Below, piece after piece: positions 5,068-45,018 of a DNA stretch of 64,000 bases (positions within the stretch are counted from its first letter, which is position 1; every line of letters begins with the position of its first letter). The DNA lies in the NCBI RefSeq assembly GCF_001511835.1, contig NZ_LN997848.1, positions 3,872,001-3,936,000 of the forward strand. Direction: 5' to 3'. Made by a program: the position numbers and the translations under genes. The notes under the pieces are model-generated. The model did not search any database. It had not been told where the DNA came from and saw nothing but the letters and a program-made list of their open reading frames with translations. The DNA is from Magnetospirillum sp. XM-1 (GTDB taxonomy: Bacteria > Pseudomonadota > Alphaproteobacteria > Rhodospirillales > Magnetospirillaceae).

Positions 5068-5397
5068 ATGCCTTTGTCCGATTGCATTGACGCCTGTGAA
5101 CTGGCGCACCGGGCCTGCACCGAGTCGGTGATCCACGGCATGCAACAGGGCGGCAGCGCCGCCGAATGGGAACTGGTCCAGCTGCTGCTCGACTGCGCCG
5201 ACATCAACGAGACCGCCGCCGACTTCATGCTGCGTTCATCGCGCCTGCACCACCTCACCTGCCAGGTGGCGGCCGAGGTGTCCGACAAGTGCGCCAGCGC
5301 CTGCGAGAAGCTGGCCAAGGAGGACGTGCGGCTCAAGGAATGCGCCGAAGCCTGCCGCCGGGCCGCCACGGCCTGCCGCAAGACCATCAAGAACTAA
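5068..5397 (+). CDS. Cysteine-rich four-helix-bundle copper-binding protein (Csp/DUF326-like)
   Basis: A 109-residue protein with ten cysteines at 6, 10, 17, 43, 65, 75, 79, 92, 96 and 103. Several are spaced CxxxC within predicted helices, which is the pattern of cytosolic Csp3/DUF326 proteins whose four-helix bundle core stores many Cu(I) ions. There is no signal peptide, so it is cytosolic like Csp3. The start was set at the ATG that follows CAGGGGAGAA; the longer reading frame upstream has no such site. No copper exporter or regulator is adjacent, so the copper role rests on the fold and cysteine pattern only. Confidence 0.75.
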   Translation: MPLSDCIDACELAHRACTESVIHGMQQGGSAAEWELVQLLLDCADINETAADFMLRSSRLHHLTCQVAAEVSDKCASACEKLAKEDVRLKECAEACRRAATACRKTIKN

Positions 5398-5398
5398 G

Positions 5399-5493
5399 GC
5401 GGCCGGGACGGCCGCGCTCCAAGGGGCATCGCCGCCCCGGAGCGCGGGCATCCTGCCCGCTGAATTTATCGGAGCGCGGGCATCCTGCCCGCA
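5399..5493. repeat. Interspersed palindromic repeat, family B (two units)
   Basis: The intergenic segment contains a GGCCGGGACGGCCGCGCTCC head followed by two copies of GAGCGCGGGCATCCTGCCCGC, each able to fold on itself (GCGGGCA / TGCCCGC). The same head and hairpin unit recur at 27946-28000, also next to a gene end. This is a REP-like dispersed element. Confidence 0.7.
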
Positions 5494-5518
5494 GGTCGCC
5501 CCGAGGACACAGGAGATC

Positions 5519-5800
5519 ATGGTGAAGGACGAAACCCGCATCGTTGGCAATCTGCCCAACCTTCGCATGGAGATCGTCCATCGCCAGGACCCCGACGGCG
5601 CGGCCGAGCATGTGAGCATTCATCTCTCGGCCACGCCGTCCTTCCAGGCCGCCGAAACCCTGCTGTCGCCCGCCATGTGGGGCAATCCCCTGGCGCTGTG
5701 GACCTGCATGACCCAGGCGTGGCTCACCCCCTGGACCCAGGCGCTGGGCGGCGGCGGCAATCCCTGGCTCGACGCCCTGACGCAGCGCGATTCCAAGTAG
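5519..5800 (+). CDS. Conserved-looking small hypothetical protein
   Basis: Not recognised. It is a 93-residue soluble protein that starts at an ATG with AGGAGATC immediately upstream. The first half (VGNLPNLRMEIVHRQDP, HVSIHLSATPSFQ) looks like beta strands; the second half is rich in Trp, Pro and Leu (WGNPLALWTCMTQAWLTPW). Phasins and poly-hydroxyalkanoate-associated proteins can have Trp-rich helices of this sort, but the likeness is too weak to call. Its TAG is followed directly by the ATG of the MFS carrier, so the two are translationally coupled and probably share a function. Confidence 0.6.
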   Translation: MVKDETRIVGNLPNLRMEIVHRQDPDGAAEHVSIHLSATPSFQAAETLLSPAMWGNPLALWTCMTQAWLTPWTQALGGGGNPWLDALTQRDSK

Positions 5801-6979
5801 ATGAATCCCGAACGTACCTCGTGGCCCGCCGTCCTCATGGCGGTGGGAGCGGGAGTCGCCGCCGCCTTCCAGGTGGGCAAGGCCCCCATCGCGCTGCCCT
5901 TCATCCGGGGCGAGATGGGCCTCGACCTGTCCCACGCCGCCTGGATCCTCTCCATCTTCGCCCTGATGGGAGCCGCCGTCGGCGCCGGCATGGGCACCCT
6001 GGTCACCCGCCTGGGCTCGCGCCGCCTGTTGCCGGTGGGACTCGGCATTCTGGCGGCCGGCAGCCTGGCGGGGGGCCTCATCCCGGGCTTCGAAGCCTTG
6101 CTGGCCGCCCGGGTGGTGGAGGGTATCGGCTATATGCTGGTGGTCATCTCGGCGCCCGCCCTCATCACCTTGCTGACCACCGCCAGCCAGCGCCAGATGG
6201 CCTTCGGCCTGTGGGGGGCCTTCATGCCGTTCGGCATGGCGGTGTCCATGGCCGCCGCCCCCGCGCTTCCCCTGGTCGGCTGGCGCGGCCTGTGGCTGGG
6301 CATGGCCGCGCTGCTGCTGGGCTACGCCCTGCTGGTCCATTTCCGCATGCCGCGCCCGCCCAGGCCGCCCCGGCAGGACAGCCACATCCTGCACGACGTG
6401 GCCGACACGCTGCGGGCCCCCGGTCCGCTGCTGCTGGCCGCCACCTTCATCCCCTATTCCGCCGCCTATGCGGCGCTTACCGGCTTTTTGCCCACCCTGC
6501 TGATCGAGCGCATGGAGGTCAGCCCCGGCACCGCCGGGCTGATGGCCGCCCTGGTGGCCGGGGTCAACATCATCGGCAACGTCTCGTCGGGTCCGGCGCT
6601 CCGCCTCGGTCTGCCCCGGCGCAAGGTGATGGCCGCCGCCTTCGCGGTGATGATGGTCGGCTGCTTAGGGATTTTCCAGCCCTGGGTCCCGCCCGCCGCC
6701 GCCTATGGCCTGTGCCTGATGGTCAGCGCCTGCTCGGGCCTGCTGCCCGGCTGCATCCTGGGCTCGGCCTCGGTCTACGCGCCGCGCCTGACCCTGGTGC
6801 CGGTGACGCTGGGCCTTTACATGCAGGGCAGCAACTGGGGCCAGCTGCTGGGGCCGGTGGTGGTGGGCGCCGCCGTCTCGTCCCAAGGCTGGTCCGCCGC
6901 CTCGCTCGTCCTGGGCGCCGCCACCCTGTGCGGCATCGGCATGGCGCTGGCCTTGCGCCGGGCGGGCAAGGAGCCTTAA
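5801..6979 (+). CDS. MFS transporter
   Basis: A 392-residue Major Facilitator Superfamily carrier with about 12 hydrophobic segments. The loop 2-3 motif appears as GTLVTRLGSRRLLPVG. The substrate is unknown; the overall look is of the CynX/NimT-like or general MFS_1 carriers. It starts at the base after the stop of the 93-residue gene and is followed closely by the D-lactate dehydrogenase-like gene. That suggests, as inference, a possible role in import of a hydroxy acid such as lactate, or in export. Confidence 0.85.
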   Translation: MNPERTSWPAVLMAVGAGVAAAFQVGKAPIALPFIRGEMGLDLSHAAWILSIFALMGAAVGAGMGTLVTRLGSRRLLPVGLGILAAGSLAGGLIPGFEALLAARVVEGIGYMLVVISAPALITLLTTASQRQMAFGLWGAFMPFGMAVSMAAAPALPLVGWRGLWLGMAALLLGYALLVHFRMPRPPRPPRQDSHILHDVADTLRAPGPLLLAATFIPYSAAYAALTGFLPTLLIERMEVSPGTAGLMAALVAGVNIIGNVSSGPALRLGLPRRKVMAAAFAVMMVGCLGIFQPWVPPAAAYGLCLMVSACSGLLPGCILGSASVYAPRLTLVPVTLGLYMQGSNWGQLLGPVVVGAAVSSQGWSAASLVLGAATLCGIGMALALRRAGKEP

Positions 6980-7011
6980 TTTAAGTGGTCCTACCACGAA
7001 GGCCCGTCCCC

Positions 7012-30867: not shown

Positions 30868-31350
30868 TCAGCCCCCGGCCAGTTCGCCCATGGCCGATTG
30901 CAGGTAGTTGGGCAGGCCCATGGAAGCGATCAGGCCCTGCTGGTTTTCCAGCCAGTCGATGGCCTCCTCCGCCTCTTCCAGGACTTCCGCCAGTTCGTGG
31001 CGGGTGACGAAATCCTGCTTGTCCTCGGCCAGGGCGATGGCGGCGACCAGGGCGGTGCGTTCCTTGACCATCATGGCCAGGTCGTTGGCGATGATCTCGG
31101 GCACGTCCTCGCCGATATAGAGCTTGCCCAAATCCTGCAGGTTGGGCAGCCCCTCCAGGAACAGGATGCGCTCGATCACCTCGTCGGCGTGCTTCATCTC
31201 CTCGATGGACAGCTTGTAGACGGCCTTGCCCAGGTCCTTGATGCCCCAGTTCTTCAGCATGCGGGCATGCAGGAAGAACTGGTTGATGGCGGTCAGCTGG
31301 ACCTTCAAGACCTCGTTCAGCGCCTTGTTGACGGCCTTGTCGCCCTTCAT
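30868..31350 (-). CDS. bfr: Bacterioferritin, heme-type subunit with degenerate ferroxidase site
   Basis: A 160-residue bacterioferritin close to the E. coli protein over its whole length ([15 protein letters not shown] and [22 protein letters not shown]). It keeps the heme-ligand methionine at Met52, but the dinuclear iron site is broken: E. coli Glu18, Glu94, Glu127 and His130 correspond here to Gln18, Met94, Ala127 and Ala130, with only Glu51 and His54 left. It should therefore bind heme but not oxidise iron by itself. It overlaps the next bacterioferritin gene by four bases. In Magnetospirillum the two Bfr subunits form mixed 24-mers. Confidence 0.93.
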
Positions 31351-31838
31351 GAGGCACCTCCGACCAGATCGCCGGCCGCCGATTGCAGGTAGTTCTGCAG
31401 GCCCAGGCGGCTGATCAGCCCCACCTGCTGCTCCAGCCAGTGGGTATGGTCTTCCTCGGTGTCGGACAGCAGCTCGCGCAGGATGGCGCGGGTCTCGTAA
31501 TCCTGCTCCTTCTCGACCAGGGCGATGGCGGCCTTGAGCTCGCCCACCACCATGATCTCGTAGGCCAGGTCGTTCTTCAGCATCTCCTCGACGTCCTTGC
31601 CGATGGCCAGCTTGCCGCGCTTGCCCACGTCGGGGGTGCCTTCCAGGAACAGGATGCGGCGGATCAGCTTGTCGGCATGCTCCAGCTCTTCCTCGCGCTC
31701 ATGGGCGATGCGCTCAAAGAGGCGGTTGAAGCCCCAATTGGCCATCATCCGCGAATGGGCGAAGTACTGGTCGGCGGCGGTCAGCTCGGCCGTCAGCAGC
31801 TTGTTGAGACAATCGATGACCTTCTTACTGCCCTGCAT
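31347..31838 (-). CDS. bfr: Bacterioferritin, ferroxidase-type subunit lacking heme methionine
   Basis: A 163-residue bacterioferritin with the full ferroxidase set: Glu18, Glu51, His54, Glu94 and, allowing for a one-residue insertion, Glu128 and His131. Position 52 is Leu rather than Met, so it should not bind heme. It is the first gene of the bfr pair, with GGAGGG before the ATG, and its stop overlaps the start of the heme-type subunit. Together the two proteins should store iron as a hetero-oligomer. The Irr-like regulator lies 101 bases upstream on the same strand. Confidence 0.93.
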
Positions 31839-31939
31839 GGCAATGCCCTCCTTCAACTGTTGGAGGGATGATGCGGCGCACCCTGCGGGTTATCAAGATT
31901 TTTCATTTAAAATCAAATAGATCGCCATACATCTAAGAC

Positions 31940-32421: not shown

Positions 32422-33399
32422 TCAGACCTCGTCCTGCCACTTCCGCGCGATGATGCCGGCGGCGATCAGCTGGATCAGGTGGTAAAGGATGGTGGGGGCG
32501 ATGATCAGTCCCAGGACGGGCGAGGCGCCGAACATGATCTTGGCCATGGGCACGCCGGTGGCCAGCGACTTCTTGGTGCCGCAGAACACCCCGGCGATGG
32601 CGTCTTCGCGGTTGAAGCCCAGCCCCCGGCAGACCAGCCGCAGCAACAGGAAGACGAAGGCGAACAGCAGAGCCGCCCCGCCCACCGCCTGAAGGACGAA
32701 ACCACTCCCCTGCCCTTCCCACACACCTTCGGCCACGGAATCCGAGAAGGAATTGAAGACGATCAGCAAAATGGTCAGGCGGTCGAGGGATTTCAGCCAC
32801 TTCATGTTGCGCTCGAGCCAACCGCGCAGCCACGGCCGCAGCACCTGGCCCAGCACGATGGGCAGCAACACCAGCAGCACGATCTTGAGCAGCACCTTGC
32901 CGAGGTCGAGGGAGGCGCCGCTGGACGACAGGTACCAGTTGACCCAGAGCGGCGTCAGCACCACGCCGAGCAGGCTGGACAGGGTGGCGTTGAAGATGGC
33001 GCCCGCCACGTTGCCCCGCGCGATGGAGGTCATGGCCACCGAGGAGGAAATGGTCGACGGCAGCGCGGCGAGGAAGAAGAAGCCCAGCATCAGGTCGGGG
33101 GAAACCCGCCCGCCCAGCGCCAGGGCCGCCCCCCAGGCCAGGGCGGGAAACAGCAGGAAGGTGGAGGTCTGGACCACCAGATGCAGACGCCAGTTGACCA
33201 GACCGGCCTTCATGCGCTCGGGCGGGAGCGTCAGGCCATAGAGCAGGAAGACCAGCGCCACGCCGTAGACGGTGATGGCATCCATGTGCAGATGCCCGCC
33301 GCTCTTGCCGAAATCGGGCAGCACCCAGGCCAGCGCGACCATGGACACCAGTCCCAGCAGAAAGCCGTCGATACCGATACGGGCGAGAAGCTTGAACAC
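32422..33399 (-). CDS. Bile acid:sodium symporter (BASS/YfeH-like) family transporter
   Basis: A 325-residue membrane protein with about nine to ten hydrophobic segments. The family marks are LYGLTLPPERMKAG, ALPSTISSSVAMTSIARGNVAGAIFNATLSSLLG and GVFCGTKKSLATGVPMAKIMF. The STISSSV and GTKKSLA motifs are those of the YfeH/SBF_like branch. It probably moves an organic anion with sodium; the substrate is not known. It lies upstream of the irr-like gene on the same strand. Confidence 0.85.
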   Translation of the reverse strand: MFKLLARIGIDGFLLGLVSMVALAWVLPDFGKSGGHLHMDAITVYGVALVFLLYGLTLPPERMKAGLVNWRLHLVVQTSTFLLFPALAWGAALALGGRVSPDLMLGFFFLAALPSTISSSVAMTSIARGNVAGAIFNATLSSLLGVVLTPLWVNWYLSSSGASLDLGKVLLKIVLLVLLPIVLGQVLRPWLRGWLERNMKWLKSLDRLTILLIVFNSFSDSVAEGVWEGQGSGFVLQAVGGAALLFAFVFLLLRLVCRGLGFNREDAIAGVFCGTKKSLATGVPMAKIMFGASPVLGLIIAPTILYHLIQLIAAGIIARKWQDEV

Positions 33400-33497
33400 A
33401 CCGGACCTCGAACTGGCTGCGCCGTGGCGGCGACACTACCCCAACCGCCCCCCCCAATGTCATCGACTTTTACCCCCCGCTCTGGCATGAGGGAGGC

Positions 33498-33956
33498 ATG
33501 CGAGGACTTCTCTTGACCGTCATGGCCGCCTTGGCTCTGACCATTCACCCGGCCAGGGCCGAGACCATCGAGGGCAACCGCATCTTCGTGGAATTCGCCT
33601 ACGACGCCAGCACGCCGGAAATGGCCGCCGCCGAGAAATGGGCGCGGCCCCATTTCGCCAAGGCCAAGGCGGCGGGACGGCCCATCCGCGTCAGCGTCGG
33701 CCGCTCGCGCGGGACCACCCTGATCAGCCTGGAATCGGTGGCCGTCTGCGACCGGGTCAAGGCCTGCCCGCTGCTGGTGTTCCGCGACCTGACGGCGCGG
33801 CCCATCCTGGAAACCACCTCGTTCCAGAACGTGCTGATCGAATATCGGGGACAGGAAATCTTCCTGGTCATCCGCCTGTGGGAGGAGACCACCGAATGCC
33901 GGATCACCGGCATGGGCCGGGCCAAGTGCAGGAAGGTTCCGAAGAAAAGCGGCTAG
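33498..33956 (+). CDS. Exported hypothetical protein
   Basis: Not recognised. The 152-residue protein has a clear signal peptide (MRGLLLTVMAALALTIHPARA, then ETIEG), so it is periplasmic or secreted. The mature part is a mixed alpha/beta domain with two cysteines close together (VCDRVKAC) and another pair near the end (TECRITGMGRAKC), which may form disulfides. It is divergent from the BASS gene. Confidence 0.65.
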   Translation: MRGLLLTVMAALALTIHPARAETIEGNRIFVEFAYDASTPEMAAAEKWARPHFAKAKAAGRPIRVSVGRSRGTTLISLESVAVCDRVKACPLLVFRDLTARPILETTSFQNVLIEYRGQEIFLVIRLWEETTECRITGMGRAKCRKVPKKSG

Positions 33957-33961
33957 TTGGA

Positions 33962-33980
33962 GCACGATCCTAGATCGTGC
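33962..33980. terminator. Short perfect hairpin after the exported-protein gene
   Basis: GCACGATC and GATCGTGC, separated by CTA, form a perfect 8-bp stem 5 bases past the stop codon, between convergent genes. There is no T-run, so termination strength is doubtful. Confidence 0.35.
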
Positions 33981-34052
33981 CCGGCCGCCATTGCGGCGGC
34001 GGCCAAGCTCGCGGAGGCGAGCGCTAAGGCCAAGGGGCAAGCAAAGAGCGCG

Positions 34053-34364
34053 TCAGCGCCGCTTGTCGAACACCACCACCTCGCCCTCGCGCCCCATGTT
34101 CAGCATGATGCGCGCCCGCTCTTCCAGCATGTCGGGGTCAAGGTGGTCGGGCCGCAGAAGCTGTACCCGGTGTTCCATCTCGGTGCGTTCGGACGCCACC
34201 CGGGACAGGTGCATCTCGGCCTCGAGAATCTCTGCCTGCAGCCGAAAGTAGGCCAGCACTCCGCGATCACCTTCAACGGTGTGGTAGGTGAAATACGCCA
34301 CGGCGCCAAGCCCGATCATCGGTCCGACGACACGACGACAACGGCTGAGAAGTTCTTGCAACAT
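34053..34364 (-). CDS. Septum formation initiator-like protein (FtsB/DivIC family)
   Basis: A 103-residue single-span inner-membrane protein: short cytoplasmic N-terminus (MLQELLSRCRRVV), one transmembrane helix (GPMIGLGAVAYFTYHTVEG), a coiled coil (LAYFRLQAEILEAEMHLSRVASERTEMEHRVQLL) and the family end LDPDMLEERARIMLNMGREGEVVV. FtsB-like proteins link cell-division complexes through their coiled coil. No division genes adjoin it, though alphaproteobacterial members often lie alone or by pyruvate dehydrogenase genes. Confidence 0.8.
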   Translation of the reverse strand: MLQELLSRCRRVVGPMIGLGAVAYFTYHTVEGDRGVLAYFRLQAEILEAEMHLSRVASERTEMEHRVQLLRPDHLDPDMLEERARIMLNMGREGEVVVFDKRR

Positions 34365-34478
34365 GAAGGGGATGGAATCACATGCTGATTCATTGCGTCA
34401 ACACATGCATTCACACCACGTTCACTTTTCCATCGGGCGAGTCACCGGTGTTGCATAAATGACTCACTTTTCTCATGG

Positions 34479-36278
34479 CTATGTGGAGACGCTCACATTG
34501 GGGAGCGTGATGACGAAGACCGCCCCGCCTCCGGCCCGGTTGTCGGCCCGGATGGACCCGCCCATGTCACGGATGATGCCGTAGGACAGCGACAGGCCGA
34601 GCCCCAGCCCCTCGCCCACCTCCTTGGTGGTGAAGAACGGTTCGAACACGCGGTCGGCCACGTCGGAGGGCAGGCCGGGACCGCTGTCGGCGACGGAGAC
34701 CGCCACCTCGCCTCCCACCCGCACCGCGTCGATCACGATGCGCCGCGCCGGAGCATCGGCCACCGCGTCGATGGCGTTGGCCAGCAGGTTGACGAAGACC
34801 TGGTCGAGACGTCCGGGATCGCCCGACACCATCAGCCCCTCGGGCGGGTTCCAGACCAGATCGATCTCGGCCTGGCGCAGCCGCACCGCCAGCAGCGCCA
34901 CGGCCCGGCTGACCGAGGCGGCGGGATCGGTGACCTGGGGCGTCACCGGGCTCTTGCGGGCGAAGACCCGCAGGTGGCGGATGATCTCGGCCATGCGGCG
35001 GCACAGATCGTCGATCATGGACAGGTTGGTTCCCGCCGTCGCCGCGTCGCCGCGCTCGACGAAGATGCGGGAACTGGCGACGAAGGTCTGGATGGCGGCC
35101 AGCGGCTGGTTCAACTCGTGGGCGATGGCCGCCGACATCTGGCCCAGCGCCGCCATCTTGCCGGCATGAATGAGTTCGTCCTGGGTCTCGCGCAGATGGT
35201 GCTCGGTCCGCTGGCGCTCGACGATCTCGGCGCTCAGCGCCTCGGTCCGCAGGGCCACCAGCGCTTCCAGAGTGTCGCGGGCGTCCAGCTTGGCCTTCAG
35301 CACCAGGCGGCGCTGGCGCAGATAGAGCAGCAGCAGGATGAAGGCGATCCAGCCCAGCCCGGCCAGGGCGGCGGTGGAGCGCACGTTGCTTTCCATGGCC
35401 TCCCAGTCGGCCAGGTAGTGGATGGTCCAGCCCTCCTCGTCCAGCGCCTGGGCCTGGGCGACGAACCGGGCGTCGCCGTTGCGCTCGAGCCGGGCGGCGT
35501 CCCCCAGGGAGAGCAGGACCCGCCGCTCCAGCGCCCGCAGCTGCACGGCGCCGTAGCGCTGGATGGCGTCAAGCTTGCGGCGCAGCTCCTCGGTGACCGG
35601 CCCGTCCACCGCGTATTTCCACTCCGGCCGGCTGGTCAGGATCACCACGCCGTCCTCGTCGGTAACCATGACCGCGTCGCCGCCCCGCCCCCAATCCTCC
35701 TCCAGGGTCTCCAGGTCGATCTTGACCACCACGGCGCCGATGATGTCGCCCGCCCGGCCGCGCACGCCCGAGGCGAGGAAATAACCCGGCAGCTTGGTGG
35801 TCACCCCGATGCCGAAGAAGTGGCCCGCACCGGCGCTCATCACCTGGGTGAAATAGGGGCGGAAGCTGTAATCGTTGCCCACATAGGAGAGCGGCGTGCG
35901 CCAATTGCTGGCCGACACGGTCACGCCCTTGCGGTCCATGACGTAGAGCGAGGCCGAGCGGGCGCCGGCGTTGATGGTCTCCAGCTTGGCGCTCAAGGCA
36001 TCGGCCCGGTCGGGCTCGCCCTCCAGTACCTCGATCACCTCGCGGTCCAGCGCGATGGTGGCGGGCAGGTAGGAGAAGCGGTCGAGCGCGGCGCGGATGG
36101 TCGAGGCATAAAGGCCCAACCGCTGCTGCCCCATGACCAGGGCGCCGTCCAGCGCCTCGGCGCGGGCGCGCTGGTAGACCCAGGCCACCACCAGCCCGCC
36201 CAGCAAGGCCGCCAGCGCCAGCATCCCGACAACGGGACGGCTGGGCGGTGCGGCGGAAGGGGTGTCGGGCGAGGTCAT
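34479..36278 (-). CDS. dctB: Sensor histidine kinase DctB
   Basis: A 599-residue membrane sensor kinase. An N-terminal helix (VVGMLALAALLGGLVVAWV), a periplasmic double-Cache/PAS-like domain (about 35-290, with SASLYVMDRKGVTVSASNW and YSFRPYFTQVMSAGAGHFF), a second helix (AALAGLGWIAFILLLLYL), a coiled linker and the kinase core follow. The phospho-accepting histidine is in AAIAHELNQPLAAIQTF; the ATPase boxes are NLLANAIDAV, DSGPGLP and GLGLGLSLSYGII. This is the architecture of DctB, which senses C4-dicarboxylates. It is divergent from dctD, only 72 bases apart. Confidence 0.88.
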   Translation of the reverse strand: MTSPDTPSAAPPSRPVVGMLALAALLGGLVVAWVYQRARAEALDGALVMGQQRLGLYASTIRAALDRFSYLPATIALDREVIEVLEGEPDRADALSAKLETINAGARSASLYVMDRKGVTVSASNWRTPLSYVGNDYSFRPYFTQVMSAGAGHFFGIGVTTKLPGYFLASGVRGRAGDIIGAVVVKIDLETLEEDWGRGGDAVMVTDEDGVVILTSRPEWKYAVDGPVTEELRRKLDAIQRYGAVQLRALERRVLLSLGDAARLERNGDARFVAQAQALDEEGWTIHYLADWEAMESNVRSTAALAGLGWIAFILLLLYLRQRRLVLKAKLDARDTLEALVALRTEALSAEIVERQRTEHHLRETQDELIHAGKMAALGQMSAAIAHELNQPLAAIQTFVASSRIFVERGDAATAGTNLSMIDDLCRRMAEIIRHLRVFARKSPVTPQVTDPAASVSRAVALLAVRLRQAEIDLVWNPPEGLMVSGDPGRLDQVFVNLLANAIDAVADAPARRIVIDAVRVGGEVAVSVADSGPGLPSDVADRVFEPFFTTKEVGEGLGLGLSLSYGIIRDMGGSIRADNRAGGGAVFVITLPNVSVST

Positions 36279-36350
36279 GGGCAAGAGGCAATCACAGGCG
36301 CCTTCCCCCGGCAATTTGATTTTCGCCCCGGCTCGGTTATGGTCCTAAGG

Positions 36351-37690
<1,340 letters not shown>

Positions 37691-37691
<1 letters not shown>

Positions 37692-37739
37692 GCGGAATTC
37701 CGCCGATCCCATCCTGGGCGTTCGGCGGAATTCCGCCGA
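37691..37739. promoter_or_regulatory. Tandem palindromes, candidate DctD upstream activator sites
   Basis: GGCGGAATTCCGCC (37691-37704) and TCGGCGGAATTCCGCCGA (37722-37739) are perfect palindromes with the same core, centres 33 bases apart (about three helical turns). They lie 42-90 bases before the sigma54 promoter at 37781, which is the usual layout for tandem DctD-like activator sites. Confidence 0.7.
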
Positions 37740-37780
37740 TCAAACCCTAGACATGCGAATTAATTCAAAGCCTTAGCGTC

Positions 37781-37796
37781 TGGCCCGCCCCTTGCT
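37781..37796 (+). promoter_or_regulatory. Sigma54 (-24/-12) promoter of the KgtP-like carrier
   Basis: TGGCCCGCCCCTTGCT matches the consensus TGGCACG-N4-TTGCT with one change. The invariant GG (37782-37783) and GC (37794-37795) are separated by exactly 10 bases. It lies 56 bases before the TTG start of the carrier gene. Confidence 0.85.
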
Positions 37797-37851
37797 CTGG
37801 CCTTCCGCAAAATCGCCCGCGTCGTGCGGGCCAATGCGGGAGGACCGAACG

Positions 37852-39198
37852 TTGAGTCACATGGATACGACCATAATCCCGGCCGCGGGAACTCCGACGG
37901 CCGGGAGCCACGACATGGACAACAAGGACACCAAGGGCAAGATCCTGATGGTGTTCAAGGGGTCGGTGGGCAATCTGGTGGAATATTACGACTGGTACGT
38001 CTATTCCGCCTTCGCGCTGTATTTCTCCAAGTACTTCTTCCCGGGCGACGACCCCACCGTCCAGCTTCTCAACACCTCGGCCATCTTCGCGCTCGGCTTC
38101 TTCATGCGCCCGCTGGGCGGCTGGCTGCTGGGCACCTATGCCGACCGCAAGGGGCGCAAGGCGGCGCTGCTGGTCTCGGTCAGCATGATGTGCGCCGGTT
38201 CGCTGATCATCGCGGTGATGCCCGGCTACCAAACCATCGGCATCGCGGCGCCCATCGCCCTGATCCTGGCCCGCCTGCTGCAAGGCCTGAGCCTGGGCGG
38301 CGAATACGGCTCGGCCGCCACCTACCTGTCGGAGATCGCCTCCAAGGACCGGCGCGGCTTCTATTCCAGCTTCCAGTACGTCACCCTGATCATGGGGCAG
38401 CTGCTGGCGCTGGGCGTGCTGATCGCGCTGCAGCGGGTGTTCCTCTCCACCGCCGAGCTGGAAGCCTGGGGCTGGCGCATTCCCTTCGTCATCGGCGGCT
38501 TGTGCGCCGTGGTGGCCATCTATCTGCGGAGCTCCATGGAGGAGACCGAATCCTTCGAGCACCACAAGGGCGAGGTGGTGGGCGAAAGCCGCATCCGCGC
38601 CCTGATGCGCCACCCGCGCGAGGTGATGACGGTGATCGGCCTGACCATGGGCGGCACCGTGGCCTTCTACACCTTCACCACCTACATGCAGAAATATCTG
38701 GTGAACACCGCCGGCTTCTCGAAGAACGACGCCACCATGATCTCGGCGGCGGCCACCTTCGTCTACATGCTGATGCATCCGCTGGTGGGCCATATTTCCG
38801 ACAAGGTGGGGCGGCGCGCCGTGCTGATCGCCTTCGGCGTCATGAGCACGCTGTGCACCGTTCCCATCCTCACCGCGCTGGGCCAGACCAGAGATTCGGT
38901 CACCGCCTTCTTCCTGGTGCTGTCGGGGCTGACCATCGTCTCGGGCTATTCCGCCATCAACGCCGTGGTCAAGGCCGAGCTGTTCCCGGTGCAGATCCGC
39001 GCGCTGGGCGTCGGCCTGCCGTTTGCCATCGGTGTGTCGCTGTTCGGCGGCACGGCGGAATACATCGCGCTGTGGTTCAAGAGCATCGGCAACGAGACCT
39101 GGTTCTACTGGTACGTCACCGGCTGCTGCCTGTGCGGCCTGCTGCTGTTCGTCGGCATGAAGGACACCAAGCAGACCTCGCTGATCGACAAGGATTGA
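37852..39198 (+). CDS. MFS dicarboxylate/alpha-ketoglutarate-type symporter (KgtP-like)
   Basis: A 448-residue Major Facilitator of the metabolite:H+ symporter group. Marks are GNLVEYYDWYVYSAFALYFSKYFFP, RPLGGWLLGTYADRKGRKAALLVSV and RLLQGLSLGGEYGSAATYLSE, all typical of KgtP/ProP-like carriers. It probably imports a di- or tricarboxylate driven by protons. TTG at 37852 is preferred because GGGAGG lies eight bases upstream; ATG at 37861 is the alternative. Control by DctB/DctD and sigma54 is strongly suggested by the promoter region. A strong terminator follows. Confidence 0.88.
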   Translation: MSHMDTTIIPAAGTPTAGSHDMDNKDTKGKILMVFKGSVGNLVEYYDWYVYSAFALYFSKYFFPGDDPTVQLLNTSAIFALGFFMRPLGGWLLGTYADRKGRKAALLVSVSMMCAGSLIIAVMPGYQTIGIAAPIALILARLLQGLSLGGEYGSAATYLSEIASKDRRGFYSSFQYVTLIMGQLLALGVLIALQRVFLSTAELEAWGWRIPFVIGGLCAVVAIYLRSSMEETESFEHHKGEVVGESRIRALMRHPREVMTVIGLTMGGTVAFYTFTTYMQKYLVNTAGFSKNDATMISAAATFVYMLMHPLVGHISDKVGRRAVLIAFGVMSTLCTVPILTALGQTRDSVTAFFLVLSGLTIVSGYSAINAVVKAELFPVQIRALGVGLPFAIGVSLFGGTAEYIALWFKSIGNETWFYWYVTGCCLCGLLLFVGMKDTKQTSLIDKD

Positions 39199-39209
39199 CC
39201 CTCCTCACC

Positions 39210-39246
39210 TGCCGGCGGATTCTTTGCGAATCCGCCGGCATTTTTC
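39210..39246 (+). terminator. Rho-independent terminator after the KgtP-like gene
   Basis: TGCCGGCGGATTC and GAATCCGCCGGCA form a perfect 13-bp stem with a 5-base loop, followed by TTTTTC. It separates the carrier gene from the CoA-transferase gene. Confidence 0.93.
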
Positions 39247-39267
39247 TTCATTGCAGGAACCAGACCC

Positions 39268-40479
39268 ATGACCGGACCTTTGTCGCATCTTCGCGTTCTC
39301 GACCTCAGCCGCGTGCTGGCGGGGCCCTGGGCCGGCCAGCTGCTGGCCGACATGGGGGCCGAGGTGATCAAGGTGGAACGCCCGGGCGAAGGCGACGACA
39401 CCAGGGGCTGGGGCCCGCCCTTCCTCAAGGACAGCGACGGCAAGGACACCGGCGAGGCCGCCTATTTCCTGTCGGCCAACCGGGGCAAGCGCTCGGTGAC
39501 CATCGATTTCACTCGGACCGAGGGCCAGGAACTGGTGCGGCGCCTGGCCGCCCGGTCCGACGTGGTGCTGGAGAACTTCAAGGTGGGCGGGCTGGCCAAG
39601 TACGGCCTCGACTACGCCTCGCTGAAGGCGGTGAAGCCCGATCTGGTCTATTGCTCCATCACCGGTTTCGGCCAGGACGGGCCCTACGCCCAGCGGGCCG
39701 GCTACGACTTCCTGATCCAGGGCATGGGCGGGCTGATGAGCCTGACCGGTGAGCCCGGAGGCCAGCCCATGAAGGTGGGCGTGGCGCTCACCGACATCTT
39801 CACCGGCATGTATGCCGGCTTCGCCGTGCTGGCGGCGCTGGCCCGGCGCGACCGCACGGGCGAGGGCAGCCATATCGACTTGGCGCTGCTGGACGTGCAG
39901 GTGGCGGTGCTGGCCAACCAGGCCTCCAACTATCTGGTGGGCGGCAATACCCCCAAGCGCCTGGGCAACGCGCATCCCAACATCGTGCCCTATCAGGCCT
40001 TCGCCACCAAGGACGGCCACATCATCCTGGCGGTGGGCAACGACGGCCAGTTTCGCCGCTTCTGCGAGGTGGCCGGGCGTCCCGAGCTGGGAACCGATCC
40101 CCGCTACGCCGCCAATGCCGAGCGGGTCAGGAACCGCGCCGAGCTGGTGCCGGTGCTGGAAAGCCTGCTGGCGTCGCGTCCCTCGGCCGAATGGATCAAG
40201 ACCCTGGAGGCGGCGGGCGTGCCCTGCGGCCCCATCAACGACTTGGGCGGCGTGTTCGCCGATCCCCAGGTCATCCATCGCGGCCTGAAAACCCGCGTCG
40301 AGCACCCCCTGGCCGGCGGCGTCGATCTGGTCGCCAATCCCATCCGCTTCGACGGCGCCCAGGCGGTCTCGGACCGGGCCCCGCCGCTGCTGGGCGGCGA
40401 CACCGCCCAGGTTCTGTCCGGCTGGCTGGACCTGGACGAGGAGGAGATGGCCGGGCTCAGGGCATCCGGGGTGATCTGA
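39268..40479 (+). CDS. Class III CoA-transferase (CaiB/BaiF family)
   Basis: A 403-residue family III CoA-transferase, which moves CoA between carboxylic acids by an aspartyl-CoA mechanism. Marks are LDLSRVLAGPWAGQLLADMGAEVIKVERP, NRGKRSVTIDF, VLENFKVGGLAKYGLDYASL, YCSITGFGQDGPY and GYDFLIQGMGGLMSLTGEP; the likely catalytic Asp lies in VALTDIFTGMYA. The substrate pair is not defined. It follows the KgtP-like gene across a strong terminator, so it is a separate unit, though it could activate a carboxylate brought in by that carrier. Confidence 0.88.
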   Translation: MTGPLSHLRVLDLSRVLAGPWAGQLLADMGAEVIKVERPGEGDDTRGWGPPFLKDSDGKDTGEAAYFLSANRGKRSVTIDFTRTEGQELVRRLAARSDVVLENFKVGGLAKYGLDYASLKAVKPDLVYCSITGFGQDGPYAQRAGYDFLIQGMGGLMSLTGEPGGQPMKVGVALTDIFTGMYAGFAVLAALARRDRTGEGSHIDLALLDVQVAVLANQASNYLVGGNTPKRLGNAHPNIVPYQAFATKDGHIILAVGNDGQFRRFCEVAGRPELGTDPRYAANAERVRNRAELVPVLESLLASRPSAEWIKTLEAAGVPCGPINDLGGVFADPQVIHRGLKTRVEHPLAGGVDLVANPIRFDGAQAVSDRAPPLLGGDTAQVLSGWLDLDEEEMAGLRASGVI

Positions 40480-40572
40480 CCCGCCGCGCCCATTTCGGAT
40501 TCCCACATGTCGACCTAGCCGATGGTATGTGCTCTAATTCGGTGAAATTCGCGCCGAGGAAAGATCCCTTCC

Positions 40573-41028
40573 ATGGGTGAGCCGCGTCAATATCTGCGGG
40601 ATGTCACGGGAGTGACGGCCCCGCCAGGACTCCCCGGCGCCGGCCTGGGAATGGCGCCGCGCACCACCTTGTCCGAATTCGAGCGGGCCCAGGTCCGGGG
40701 AATCGCCGAGGAAGGCGCCGCCCTGGCCGCCACCATCGTCCGCTGGCACAAGGATCAGAACCGCGCTCACGGCCACTCACCCCAAGACAGGATGTCCCAC
40801 GGGCTGGCGGTCGCGGCGCTGGGCGCCGTGATCATGCAGATTCTGGCCTGGGTGCGCCTGGTCGAGCCCGCCGACGCCTCCCCCGCCACTCTGCGCAATG
40901 CCCGCGAAGTCATCGGCGGCGCCGACCCCGAGGCCGAGCCGACGGCCATCGACACCCAGGCCCGCGCCCTGCTGATTCACGCCCTGGGCGTCAAGGCGAA
41001 GGCTCGTCGCATTTCGCGCCACTGGTGA
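40573..41028 (+). CDS. Hypothetical protein
   Basis: Not recognised. It has 151 residues, soluble and mainly helical. Residues about 30-65 form a charged helix (LSEFERAQVRGIAEEGAALAATIVRWHKDQN), residues 73-93 a more hydrophobic one (MSHGLAVAALGAVIMQILAWVRLV), and a basic tail ends it (KAKARRISRHW). The start ATG has GGAAAG upstream. It is convergent with the small gene at 41046. Confidence 0.55.
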   Translation: MGEPRQYLRDVTGVTAPPGLPGAGLGMAPRTTLSEFERAQVRGIAEEGAALAATIVRWHKDQNRAHGHSPQDRMSHGLAVAALGAVIMQILAWVRLVEPADASPATLRNAREVIGGADPEAEPTAIDTQARALLIHALGVKAKARRISRHW

Positions 41029-41384: not shown

Positions 41385-41493
41385 ACCTACCCGCCCCACC
41401 CGCTTTCTTGACGCATTCCATAATCAGGCGCGGACCGCCAGCCTGCCTGGGTTACGGTCTTGACCCTACCCCGCCACCCCCACCCTTTGGAGT

Positions 41494-41509
41494 TGGCACG
41501 GTGTTTGCG
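41494..41509 (+). promoter_or_regulatory. Sigma54 promoter of the hydrogenase operon
   Basis: TGGCACGGTGTTTGCG matches the -24/-12 consensus with exact GG-N10-GC spacing (GG 41495-41496, GC 41507-41508). It lies 148 bases before the hybO start, leaving a long leader with no convincing ORF. Sigma54 control by HoxA/HupR- or NifA-type activators is common for uptake hydrogenases. Confidence 0.82.
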
Positions 41510-41656
41510 GTGACTGCATCGCACAACCGAGAACAAGAAGATTCGGGAGGCATCAGGGAGGCAGGACGGCCGGGGCATGACCCCCGGACCCGCATGGCTC
41601 CGCGATCTTCCCTTCCGGACTTCCGCAGCCCGACGCGCCAGCCAAGGTGGGGGACA

Positions 41657-42787
41657 ATGTACGACGACACCGAAATTTCCCGCGAGATCGCGAACCGGTT
41701 CAATCTGGAACGCCGCGACTTCCTGAAGTTCTGCGCCGCCATGGCCGCGACCATGGGCCTGCCCAAGGGGGCCGACGCGCAGATCGCCCAGGCCATCACC
41801 GCCAAGGAACGCCCCAGCGTGATCTGGCTGCACTTCCAGGAGTGTACCGGCTGCACCGAGTCCATGCTCCGCGCCGAGCATCCGACCATCGAGAAGCTGA
41901 TCCTGGAGATCATCTCGCTCGACTACCACGAGACGCTGTTCGCCGCCGCCGGCCATCAGGTCGAGGCCGCCCGCGAAGCCGCCATGAAGAAGAACTGGGG
42001 CAAGTACGTCCTGGTCGTCGAGGGCGCCATTCCGGTCAAGGACGGCGGCATCTACTGCAAGGTGGGCGGCAAGACCGCGCTGCAGCTGACCAAGGAATGC
42101 GCCGAGGGCGCGGCCGCCGTCATCGCCATCGGCTCCTGCGCCTCGTGGGGCGGCATGCCGTCCACGCCGCCGAACCCCACGGGCTCGACCGGCGTGCCGG
42201 AGATCCTGGCCGGCAAGCCGGTGGTGACCATCCCCGGCTGCCCGCCCAACCCCTATAACTTCCTGTCCACCGTGGTCCACTTCCTGACCTTCGGCACCCT
42301 GCCGGCGGTGGACGACAAGGGCCGCCCGAAATTCGCCTATTCCCGCCTCATCCACGAGAATTGCGAGCGCCGCGCCCATTTCGACGCCGGCCGCTTCGCG
42401 CTGGAATTCGGCGACGAGGGCCACCGCAAGGGCTATTGCCTGTACAAGCTGGGCTGCAAGGGTCCCGAGACCTACGCCAACTGCCCGGCCATCCTGTTCA
42501 ACGACGTGGGTTCCGGCTCGTGGCCGGTGGGCACCGGGCATCCCTGCATCGGCTGCACGGAAAAGGGCATCGGCTTCGCCAAGCCCATCCACGCCTTGGC
42601 CGAGCTGCAGAACCAGCGTCCGCCCGTGGGCTATCCCCGCGTGGTCGAGGAGCAGGGCACCGGAGCCTCCATCGGCGCGCTGGCCACCGTGGCGGCGGTC
42701 GGCGGTCTGGCCATCGGCGCCGGCGCCAAGCTGGTGGGCAATCTGGGCAAGAACGAAGACGGCCAGGATTCCGGAAAGCAGGGGTAA
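41657..42787 (+). CDS. hybO: [NiFe] hydrogenase small subunit (HybO-type)
   Basis: A 376-residue small subunit that carries electrons from the active site through three iron-sulfur clusters. A twin-arginine signal (ERRDFLKFCAAMAATMGL) sends the folded enzyme to the periplasm. The proximal cluster starts with ECTGCTESML; GSCASWGG, PGCPPNP, HENCERR, CLYKLGCKGPETYANC and HPCIGCTEKG complete the cluster ligands. A C-terminal hydrophobic helix (ALATVAAVGGLAIGAGAKLVG) anchors it. The sequence follows E. coli HybO closely, and the gene order hybOABC is the same as in E. coli hydrogenase 2. Confidence 0.95.
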   Translation: MYDDTEISREIANRFNLERRDFLKFCAAMAATMGLPKGADAQIAQAITAKERPSVIWLHFQECTGCTESMLRAEHPTIEKLILEIISLDYHETLFAAAGHQVEAAREAAMKKNWGKYVLVVEGAIPVKDGGIYCKVGGKTALQLTKECAEGAAAVIAIGSCASWGGMPSTPPNPTGSTGVPEILAGKPVVTIPGCPPNPYNFLSTVVHFLTFGTLPAVDDKGRPKFAYSRLIHENCERRAHFDAGRFALEFGDEGHRKGYCLYKLGCKGPETYANCPAILFNDVGSGSWPVGTGHPCIGCTEKGIGFAKPIHALAELQNQRPPVGYPRVVEEQGTGASIGALATVAAVGGLAIGAGAKLVGNLGKNEDGQDSGKQG

Positions 42788-42793
42788 TCCGCC

Positions 42794-43813
42794 ATGACCA
42801 TCACCAGACGCAATTTCTTGCGCCGGGCGGCGGCGGGTGGAACGGCGGCGGCAGCCGCCTGCGCCACCCTCGCCCCCGCCGGCGCCGAGGCGCGGGAAAG
42901 CCATAAGGTTCCCGAGAACGCCGTCGGCCTGCTGTTCGACGGGACGCTGTGCATCGGCTGCAAGGCCTGCATGTCGGCCTGCAAGGAGGCCAACAGCCTG
43001 CCGCTGGAAGACAATGTCGGCGAAAAGCTGTGGGACACGCCGCTGGAGCTTTCCGGCAAGACCTACAACGTCATCAAGGTCTACCAGTCGGGCACCATGG
43101 AGAACAAGGACAAGGCCGAGAACGGCTTTGCCCATGTCAAGCGCTCGTGCCTGCACTGCGCCGACCCCTCCTGCGTGTCGGCCTGCCCGGTCTCGGCCAT
43201 GCAGAAGCGGCCCACCGACGGCGTCGTCACCTACAACAAGGACGCCTGCATCGGCTGCCGCTACTGCGTCGCCGCCTGCCCCTTCGGCGTGCCCCAGTTC
43301 CAGTACGACACGCCCAAGCCGGAAATCGCCAAGTGCCAGCTGTGCCGGCACCGCATGGACGAGGGCAAGTACGCCGCCTGCGCCGAGGTCTGCCCCACGG
43401 GCGCGACCATCTTCGGCTCCTACAAGGCGCTGTCCGAGGAAATCGACCGCCGCCGGGCCATGAAGCCGGGCGAGCCCAACAATTTCCCCCGCCGCACCCC
43501 CGATTCGGGCGACATGCACGAAAAGGCGGCGCCGGAATACGTGGATTACGTCTACGGCCAGAAGGACGCCGGCGGCACCCAGGTGCGCTACCTGTCCGGC
43601 GTTCCCTTCGACAAGCTGGCCCTGCCCATGGGTCTGCCGGAGCGGGCCTACGCCGCCGATTCCGAGACCATGCAGCACACGCTGTATGGCGGGATGATCC
43701 TGCCGGTGGTGGCGCTGGCCGGTCTGGTCACCGCCGCCTGGAAGGGCTCGAAGAACCACCACGACGATGATGATTTCGACATGTTCGATCATCCGGAAGG
43801 GGGGCACAAGTAA
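42794..43813 (+). CDS. hybA: Hydrogenase 4x[4Fe-4S] ferredoxin subunit HybA
   Basis: A 339-residue periplasmic iron-sulfur protein. A Tat signal opens it (ITRRNFLRRAAAGG). Four cluster motifs follow: CIGCKACMSACKEAN, CLHCADPSCVSACP, CIGCRYCVAACPFG and CQLCRHRMDEGKYAACAEVCP. A C-terminal hydrophobic helix (GGMILPVVALAGLVTAAW) and an acidic/His tail close it. It passes electrons from HybO to the quinone-reducing HybB. It starts 6 bases after hybO and its TAA overlaps the hybB start. Confidence 0.94.
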   Translation: MTITRRNFLRRAAAGGTAAAAACATLAPAGAEARESHKVPENAVGLLFDGTLCIGCKACMSACKEANSLPLEDNVGEKLWDTPLELSGKTYNVIKVYQSGTMENKDKAENGFAHVKRSCLHCADPSCVSACPVSAMQKRPTDGVVTYNKDACIGCRYCVAACPFGVPQFQYDTPKPEIAKCQLCRHRMDEGKYAACAEVCPTGATIFGSYKALSEEIDRRRAMKPGEPNNFPRRTPDSGDMHEKAAPEYVDYVYGQKDAGGTQVRYLSGVPFDKLALPMGLPERAYAADSETMQHTLYGGMILPVVALAGLVTAAWKGSKNHHDDDDFDMFDHPEGGHK

Positions 43814-45018
43814 TGGTCAATCACCCCATCCCCAGCCAGGTGGCCAGCCGCCTGAAGAAGGGCAAGGCCGGGCCGACCGCCATCGGCGGCTCGCTGGTCA
43901 CTCCCTTCACCATCGTGCTCGCCGTGCTGATTGGCATCGGCCTGTTCTTCATGGCCCAGCGCTTCATCTACGGCCTGGGCGCCGTCACCAACATCAACAA
44001 CGGCTACCCCTGGGGTATCTGGGTGGTGTGGGACGTGGTCATCGCCACGGGCTTCGCCTGCGGCGGCTACGCCATGGCCCTGGTGTGCTACGTCATGAAC
44101 CGGGGCGAGTACCATCATCTGGTCCGCCCGGCGCTGACCGCCTCGCTGTTCGGCTATTCCCTGGGCGGCCTTTCCGTGCTGATCGACCTCGGCCGCTACT
44201 GGAACTTCTGGCACATCCTGTGGCCGGGCTACGCCCAGCCGGGATCGGTGATGTTCGAGGTGGCCGCCTGCATCAGCTGCTACATCCTGGTGCTGTGGAT
44301 CGAGTTCTCGCCAGCCTTCCTCGAGCATTTCGGCTTCAAGGACCTCAAGGCCAAGCTGAACAAGGTGATGTTCTTCTTCATCGGCCTGGGCGTGCTGCTG
44401 CCCACCATGCACCAATCCTCGCTGGGATCGCTGCTGGTGGTGTTCGGCGCCCAGATCCACCCGCTGTGGCAGACCCCGCTGCTGCCCTTGCTGTTCCTGC
44501 TGACCGCCGTGTGCATGGGCTTCGCCATCGTCATCCTCGAGGCGACGCTGGCCGCCGTGGGCTTCAAGCGCGACATCGCCGACGAGCTGCCCATGCTTTC
44601 GAAGATCGGCAAGATCATCATGGGCATCCTGGTGGCCTATCTGGTCATCCGCCTGGGCGACCTAATGGTGCGTGGCGCCATCTTCAAGGCGTTCACCTCG
44701 GGCGCCAAGAGCGTGATGTTCCTGATCGAGATGGCGGTGTTCGTCTATCCGATCGTGGTGCTGTCCTCGCCGGCCAACCGCAAGAAGCTGTCCAAGCTGC
44801 TGGCGGCGGCCATGAGCATGCTGACCGGCGCGGTGCTGTACCGCATCGACGCCTTCCTGGTGGCCTACGACACCGGCCCCGGCTGGCATTACTTCCCCAG
44901 CGTGCCCGAGATGATGGTCACCATCGGCGTGATCGCCATCGAAGTGCTCGCCTACATCGTTTTCGTCCGCAAATTCCCCATTCTTCCCGGCCACTCGGCC
45001 CCCGCGGCCGCCGAGTAA
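43813..45018 (+). CDS. hybB: Hydrogenase membrane subunit HybB (NrfD/PsrC family)
   Basis: A 401-residue integral membrane protein with about ten hydrophobic helices, of the NrfD/PsrC family that exchanges electrons with the quinone pool without heme. Marks are NNGYPWGIWVVWDVVIATGFACGGYAMAL and LPTMHQSSLGSLLVV, as in E. coli HybB. It links the periplasmic hydrogenase to respiration. Confidence 0.94.
   Translation: MVNHPIPSQVASRLKKGKAGPTAIGGSLVTPFTIVLAVLIGIGLFFMAQRFIYGLGAVTNINNGYPWGIWVVWDVVIATGFACGGYAMALVCYVMNRGEYHHLVRPALTASLFGYSLGGLSVLIDLGRYWNFWHILWPGYAQPGSVMFEVAACISCYILVLWIEFSPAFLEHFGFKDLKAKLNKVMFFFIGLGVLLPTMHQSSLGSLLVVFGAQIHPLWQTPLLPLLFLLTAVCMGFAIVILEATLAAVGFKRDIADELPMLSKIGKIIMGILVAYLVIRLGDLMVRGAIFKAFTSGAKSVMFLIEMAVFVYPIVVLSSPANRKKLSKLLAAAMSMLTGAVLYRIDAFLVAYDTGPGWHYFPSVPEMMVTIGVIAIEVLAYIVFVRKFPILPGHSAPAAAE

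Follow-up and report, generated by a model that had tools for sequence, protein, structure and literature searches.

In Pseudomonas aeruginosa, the use of 2-oxoglutarate is reported to require the two-component system MifSR together with RpoN, acting via PA5530, a relative of KgtP, and the expression of PA5530 meets the needs for both MifSR and RpoN (PMC4482717). The same study gave DctB and DctD of R. meliloti as the closest homologues of MifS and MifR and described a motif, GATCGGCGGATt/gTCC, common to the mifS and PA5530 promoters. PA5530 was also reported to depend on ErdR (PMC9927353) and to be induced by asparagine (PMC7962211). MifSR has been named a DctBD-type system for C5-dicarboxylates (PMC7962211), and the sensor domains of MifS, AauS, and DctB have been grouped together (PMC8694187).

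Three further systems are of interest for comparison. In S. meliloti, DctBD responds to a C4 inducer (PMC4077058) and its target is DctA; the operator before dctA has a GCGGANNTCCGC core with outer bases TGT, and the recognition helix of the regulator is PRKTFYDKL. In uropathogenic E. coli, KguSR combines a DctB-like kinase with a sigma54 activator for 2-oxoglutarate uptake (PMC5318444, PMC3694859). Its target c5038 is a carrier of the DASS family with the predicted site TGTGCG-N8-CGCACA, and E. coli kgtP itself is described as not RpoN-dependent (PMC5318444). The DctBD-type pair AauSR of Pseudomonas acts with sigma54 on the uptake system aatJQMP, an ABC carrier for acidic amino acids, at the site TTCGG-N4-CCGAA (PMC7962211).

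The locus studied here shares with MifSR/PA5530 a DctBD-family pair, a sigma54 promoter, a KgtP-type target, and the half-site GATCGGCGGAT-TCC; six related genomes also place a MifR-like gene directly before kgtP, as is the case here. It differs in that dctB is divergent from dctD, whereas mifSR is an operon, in its two near-perfect sites 33 bp apart, and in its alphaproteobacterial host; PA5530 is, moreover, separated from mifSR (PA5511–PA5512) by locus number. With S. meliloti DctBD, the locus has in common the domain plan and the operator core, whereas the C4 inducer, the DctA target, the outer bases of the operator, and the recognition helix set that system apart. KguSR and AauSR are similar in being DctB-like or DctBD-type systems that control uptake with sigma54, but differ in the carrier family, the operator, and, for AauSR, the substrate class. 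Very probably, the locus is a two-component switch of the MifSR type that serves a C5-dicarboxylate carrier.

Organization of the locus

In the window, i.e., the whole stretch of 64,000 nucleotides of Magnetospirillum sp. XM-1 that was analyzed, dctB and dctD are divergent with ~36–72 bp between them, in contrast to the operon in which dctBD is usually arranged, and dctD is followed by genes for a KgtP-type carrier (kgtP) and a CoA-transferase (Table 1). The Fis HTH of the regulator contains PRRTLNEKM. An earlier note on this DNA had described two perfect palindromes 33 bases apart ahead of a GG-N10-GC promoter, a dctD stop codon overlapping the first of them, and an MFS carrier gene with a TTG start, and all these elements were confirmed. 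Both palindromes are exact, the stop codon TAG (37689–37691) overlaps operator 1 by a single base, and the TTG of kgtP is preceded by GGGAGGA and aligned to an ATG in the congener G013. Elsewhere in the window, two bacterioferritin-like ORFs lie side by side at 30868–31856, and a hydrogenase-like cluster occupies positions 41408–45018; both were named by eye from the translations.

Table 1. Features of the dctBD–kgtP region, in window coordinates.
Feature	Position	Strand	Remarks
Sensor kinase, dctB/MifS-type	34479..36314	-	dCache_1, HisKA, HATPase_c by Pfam; start candidates TTG 36314 or ATG 36278
Response regulator, dctD/MifR-type	36351..37691	+	446 aa; receiver, sigma54 AAA+, Fis HTH
Operator 1, GGCGGAATTCCGCC	37691..37704		centre ~-109 from predicted transcription start
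Operator 2, GGCGGAATTCCGCC	37724..37737		centre ~-76 from predicted transcription start
IHF-like site ATTCAAAGCCTTA	37763..37775	+	weak; 1 mismatch; 41/1000 shuffles as good
Putative sigma54 -24/-12 promoter TGGCCCGCCCCTTGCT	37781..37796	+	one mismatch to TGGCACGNNNNTTGCW
Leader stem before ribosome-binding site	37804..37840	+	weak; z -1.54; 15/200 shuffles as good
KgtP-type MFS carrier	37852..39198	+	448 aa; TTG start
Intrinsic-terminator-like hairpin	39210..39240	+	strong, with T-run; between kgtP and the CoA-transferase gene
CaiB/BaiF CoA-transferase, gcoT-like (succinate--glutarate CoA-transferase)	39268..40479	+	best model NCBIfam NF052585

Phylogenetic placement of the regulator and the kinase

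The phylogenetic tree comprised 81 DctD-family regulator rows, the partial rows L035, L101, and L137 being left out. All 30 regulators with TLNEK or TFNEK formed one side of a branch with a support of 100/99, which holds the window regulator together with MifR-like and Azospirillum-type rows. Against the paralogues of the Pseudomonas-like genome G471, the window regulator reached 495 bits with the MifR-like protein and 414 and 411 bits with the other two DctD-family regulators, while the window kinase reached 387 bits with the MifS-like protein and 288 and 275 bits with the other two DctB-family kinases. The Azospirillum-type kinases scored slightly higher against the window kinase (419) than the MifS-like ones (409). 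The ligand pocket was compared at the motif level: the window kinase carries GVTT, the kinases of TLNEK/TFNEK regulators carry GVT[TS] in 19 of the 21 shown, and the DctB/AauS-type kinases have GT[TV]S in 11 of 15. By the tree and the paralogue scores, the window regulator is classed as MifR-type rather than DctD or AauR; by the paralogue scores, MifS is a closer counterpart of the kinase than either DctB or AauS.

Among 398 genomes drawn from across the phylum, the best regulator matches outside the genus came from f210, a single family of 13 Pseudomonas-like genomes (57–60%), and from G567 (60%); in a class-wide draw of 385 genomes, G090 was equally close (62%). Two genomes, G548 and G471, were taken as relatives of P. 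aeruginosa because the published mifSR primer sites partly match in them, with two mismatches at 4/9 sites in G548 and 5/9 in G471. The remaining sites had 3 to 9 mismatches, and the four poorer sites of G471, including that of the mifR start primer, 4 to 9. When the exact mifSR primers were scanned over the named genomes, only a myxococcal contig matched; the apparent kinship with P. aeruginosa is based on Pseudomonas-like genomes and not on a P. aeruginosa genome itself.

These placements bear on the reading of the locus as a classical, C4-sensing DctBD rewired to a KgtP-type carrier. The sensor part of the kinase aligns with DctB of S. meliloti and V. cholerae, and the solved structures related to it are those of DctB (3e4o, 2zbb, and 3by9). 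In addition, around the single SDF-family (DctA-type) gene and the four DctP-family genes of the genome, no DctD match exceeded 42%, so that a second DctBD did not come to light in these stretches. However, a search of window positions 33001–41000 gave zero matches to DctA or DctP, the usual neighbouring targets of DctBD, the family members being located elsewhere in the genome. Both the tree and the paralogue scores put the regulator and the kinase with MifSR-type proteins, the GVTT motif is that of the TLNEK/TFNEK partners and not the GT[TV]S of DctB/AauS-type kinases, and the outer bases of the window operators are unlike those of the S. meliloti dctA site TGTGCGGAAATCCGCACA. The rewiring of a canonical DctBD was rejected on the tree and the paralogue scores, and we regard it as improbable. 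The earlier note had attributed control of the carrier to DctB/DctD; its proposal of an adjacent two-component system acting through two sites and a sigma54 promoter is upheld by conservation, while the assignment to classical DctBD is not. The label thus shifts from DctBD to MifSR-type, and C5-dicarboxylates replace C4-dicarboxylates as the predicted inducers. As a side observation, the dctB region of S. meliloti RCAM1750 (L090 ~5278–6985) is unannotated and matches in two pieces.

Operators, promoter, and their conservation in congeners

The half-sites of the window operators are TAGGCGGA and TCGGCGGA, and the published motif of the mifS and PA5530 promoters, GATCGGCGGATt/gTCC, differs from the window half-site by 1 mismatch of 15; the sites do not correspond to the TGTGCGGA-type operator of canonical DctBD. 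A genome scan for the palindrome, as suggested in the earlier note, found exactly two copies of GGCGGAATTCCGCC in the 4,992,477 bases, both at kgtP, compared with a chance expectation from base composition of ~0.06 copies and with no copies of the reversed-sequence control. Operator 2 is the core of an 18-bp perfect palindrome, TCGGCGGAATTCCGCCGA (37722–37739), the sole one of that length in the window.

When WW variants of the palindrome were considered, four further exact GGCGGAWWTCCGCC sites were found in the genome. Three of them, at 1972537, 3608381, and 3909274 (the last in dctD), are within likely coding DNA, and the fourth, at 4765503, is a single site upstream of an integrase-like ORF named by eye; these sites were rejected as further targets of the regulator. 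The site in dctD, a near-copy with the sequence GGCGGAAATCCGCC at window positions 37274–37287, lies over codons for AEIRLPP, and near-copies of this type are also present in several congeners where AEIRLPP is encoded. It is probably a coding coincidence, and an internal site is less favoured.

The regulator was found at 65–89% identity in 5 of the 16 congeners searched; in the other 11, no regulator above 46% was present among the matches listed. The locus is complete in four of the five (G009, G013, G008, and G002), while the contig of G014 stops within dctD. In all four, a KgtP-type gene (58–95%) follows, and two operators with at most two mismatches from TCGGCGGANNTCCGCCGA are present at spacings of 33, 33, 33, and 32 bp. 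The two regulatory genes are divergent in the window, G009, G013, G014, and G008, and co-oriented in G002. In G009, an oppositely oriented ORF of 507 aa (L033 3826–5349) is inserted between dctD and the operators, so that the pair lies ~1.6 kb from dctD yet still upstream of kgtP. Because the pair in G009 stays beside kgtP and away from dctD, the sites were assigned to kgtP.

It could be argued that the palindromes arose by chance or serve in the processing or termination of the dctD 3′ end, given that operator 1 overlaps the dctD stop codon and that perfect 14-bp palindromes are commonplace in the window (10 observed, 8 expected from composition). We consider this extremely improbable: the identical pair occurs nowhere else in the genome, its spacing is conserved among the congeners, and the displaced pair of G009 has remained with kgtP.

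The predicted promoter is kept in 4/4 congeners with a complete locus (TGGCCC...TTGC). Taken by itself, the promoter pattern is weak evidence, with three window matches to TGGCACGNNNNTTGCW as good as TGGCCCGCCCCTTGCT against 0.92 expected, and 6 of 100 shuffled windows reaching three matches. Between operator and promoter, G013 and G002 have perfect IHF-like matches (2 and 3 of 1000 shuffles, respectively), and G008 and G009 have matches with two mismatches (52/1000 and 375/1000), that of G009 being no better than shuffling gives. In the leader of the window kgtP, a weakly supported stem may form (Table 1); by eye, GC-rich inverted repeats were also noticed in some Pseudomonas-like kgtP leaders.

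The KgtP-type carrier in other genomes and plasmids

The window carrier scored just under the cut-offs of two curated models, with 522.9 bits against NCBIfam PRK10406 (cut-off 550) and 429.2 bits against TIGR00883 (cut-off 443.45). Both cut-offs are passed by KgtP of G548 and G471 and failed by the proteins of G009 and B. ambifaria. Since the cut-offs were not reached, we call the carrier KgtP-type and not KgtP; it is 53.6% identical over 90% to an E. coli gene annotated kgtP.

In a search of 19 genomes, 13 of them f210, KgtP was found at 66–68% identity in nine, all f210. The gene is directly downstream of the MifR-like gene in six of these, at ~190–330 bp, and elsewhere in three. Upstream of all nine there is a TGGCAC..CTGC promoter together with a site of the GCGGANNTCCGC type. 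A second site was detected before only two; TCG occurs as outer bases in 3/9, and TAA or others in 6/9. Thus, the putative operator core is common to the window and the Pseudomonas-like kgtP genes, whereas the pairing of sites and the outer bases are shared less strictly. In the other four f210 genomes (G441, G692, G658, and G589), which have a MifR-like gene, the best KgtP match was 34% or none was found; MifR would therefore have another target in them or none.

KgtP matched 1430 plasmid records, and 10 of the 40 listed were examined. A DctBD-type pair directly adjoins a KgtP-type gene in five of the ten (L093, L094, L097, L099, and L100); in L101 the pair is beside a DctA gene with an MFS gene further on, and four records lack such a pair. 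The regulators of the five records fall into two clades of the tree, both separate from the MifR-type clade. The pairing of DctBD-type systems with KgtP-type carriers seems to have arisen three times, although transfer of the neighbour is also possible. The earlier note had considered the link of this regulator type to an unrelated carrier class unusual. This view does not hold, as MifSR–RpoN control of PA5530 has been published (PMC4482717) and KgtP-type genes stand beside DctBD-type pairs in three separate regulator clades. The arrangement is already known and ordinary in kind; the host group is new, and predicted MifSR–KgtP control now reaches a genus of Alphaproteobacteria in which the promoter is conserved.

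Predicted regulation of the carrier

Because the operator pair, its spacing, the promoter, and the gene order are conserved, the neighbouring two-component system most likely controls the KgtP-type carrier via the two sites and the sigma54 promoter. We infer that the periplasmic double-Cache domain of the kinase would sense a dicarboxylate outside the cell, and that the kinase would then phosphorylate the regulator. The most likely ligand is 2-oxoglutarate, and glutarate is a possible one. The regulator would bind the two TCGGCGGA-NN-TCCGCCGA-type sites, which are about three helical turns apart (~-109 and ~-76), and would reach the sigma54 polymerase through DNA looping, perhaps with the help of IHF, so that transcription of kgtP would start from the -24/-12 promoter, at about position 37806. 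C5- rather than C4-dicarboxylates are the predicted inducers.

The neighbouring CoA-transferase gene and glutarate

The CoA-transferase gene lies 69 bp downstream of kgtP. Its score against its best family model, that of succinate--glutarate CoA-transferase, was 531.6 bits, below the cut-off of 750, and the G471 gene also fell short (547.3). The window gene is 68% identical to this G471 gene, which adjoins an acyl-CoA dehydrogenase gene; the pair resembles the gcdH–gcoT order described in P. putida (PMC6667623), and a 70% relative of the G471 dehydrogenase is present in the genome of the window. No model scored above its cut-off for the G471 dehydrogenase, FadE being the best (248.5 of 600) and glutaryl-CoA dehydrogenase the fourth (222.8 of 470). 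Since the latter cut-off was not reached, the label "GcdH-like" rests on gene order.

E. coli KgtP is reported to import glutarate with a Km of ~23 uM (PMC12622518). Together with the family model and the gene order, this points to a variant that overlaps with the MifSR-type switch, in which the switch would chiefly serve glutarate, taken up by KgtP, activated by the GcoT-like enzyme, and passed to GcdH. However, the terminator-like hairpin that follows kgtP makes its simple co-transcription with the CoA-transferase gene doubtful, and the CoA-transferase gene, which follows kgtP in G009 and G013, is absent from the stretches behind kgtP in G008 and G002 and found elsewhere in these genomes. 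With the scores of both enzymes below the cut-offs, we hold the glutarate variant as a tentative possibility only, glutarate itself being a serious second candidate next to 2-oxoglutarate. Hairpins occur at the same place in G009 and G013, that of G013 without a clear T-run. The idea of a firm kgtP–gcoT operon was dropped in view of the hairpin, and a limited literature search, which does not prove absence, found no publication placing a kgtP–gcoT pair under RpoN.

G009 has two CoA-transferase copies (L251, L264) 89% identical to that of the window and one more at 77%. One copy is behind kgtP and one adjoins an ORF that by eye resembles an aldehyde dehydrogenase; the setting of this second copy may point to lysine/5-aminovalerate catabolism.

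Association between recognition helix and operator

The recognition helix was compared with the operator at 63 regulator loci, the window being excluded, and a locus was scored if an operator with two mismatches at most was found near the mapped gene. Twenty loci were scored and 43 had no operator: 9/17 N-type, 25/37 Y-type, 2/2 H-type, and 7/7 unclassed loci. All eight scored loci of TLNEK regulators, four of them congeners of the window, had TCGGCGGA-type half-sites, and all 12 scored loci of T[FL]Y[DE]K regulators had TGTGCGGA-type half-sites (Fisher value 8e-6, kinship ignored). As all TLNEK rows form one clade, this association could stem from kinship alone; the fit was also looser in Pseudomonas. 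The putative targets behind TLNEK regulators include KgtP and a DctP TRAP gene (L123); judged by eye from the translations, L108 adds TRAP-like genes and L126 one that is TAXI-TRAP-like.

These results led us to a broader reading with two parts, to which, taken jointly, we give a little less than an even chance. First, a DNA code of the DctBD family may exist, in which TLNEK and T[FL]Y[DE]K helices pair with the outer bases TCG and TGT, respectively, of the GCGGANNTCCGC operator. Second, MifR-type regulators, each with its promoter, may form a portable cassette placed on unrelated carriers (KgtP, DctPQM TRAP, TAXI-TRAP, and NMT1-type ABC); in many cases the carrier genes would have been joined to the 3′ end of the regulator gene. 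Our confidence was lowered because four of the eight TLNEK loci are congeners and the Pseudomonas-like operators fit loosely. A limited search, which does not prove absence, found no publication stating such a helix/operator rule. If true, it could make C5- and C4-acid regulons predictable from sequence, and it may assign targets to DctBD-type pairs without an adjoining transporter gene.

In Azospirillum, KgtP was considered as the target of the orphan two-component system and rejected, as G090 and two Azospirillum plasmids contained no close KgtP (best match 35%). In Azospirillum sp. B510, an operator pair with a spacing of 32 bp and a sigma54 promoter (L170 4566–4615; NC_013859.1 415567–415612) precede the genes of an NMT1-type ABC importer on a plasmid that also carries, at another position, the nearest TLNEK two-component system, and this importer is a new predicted target in that strain.
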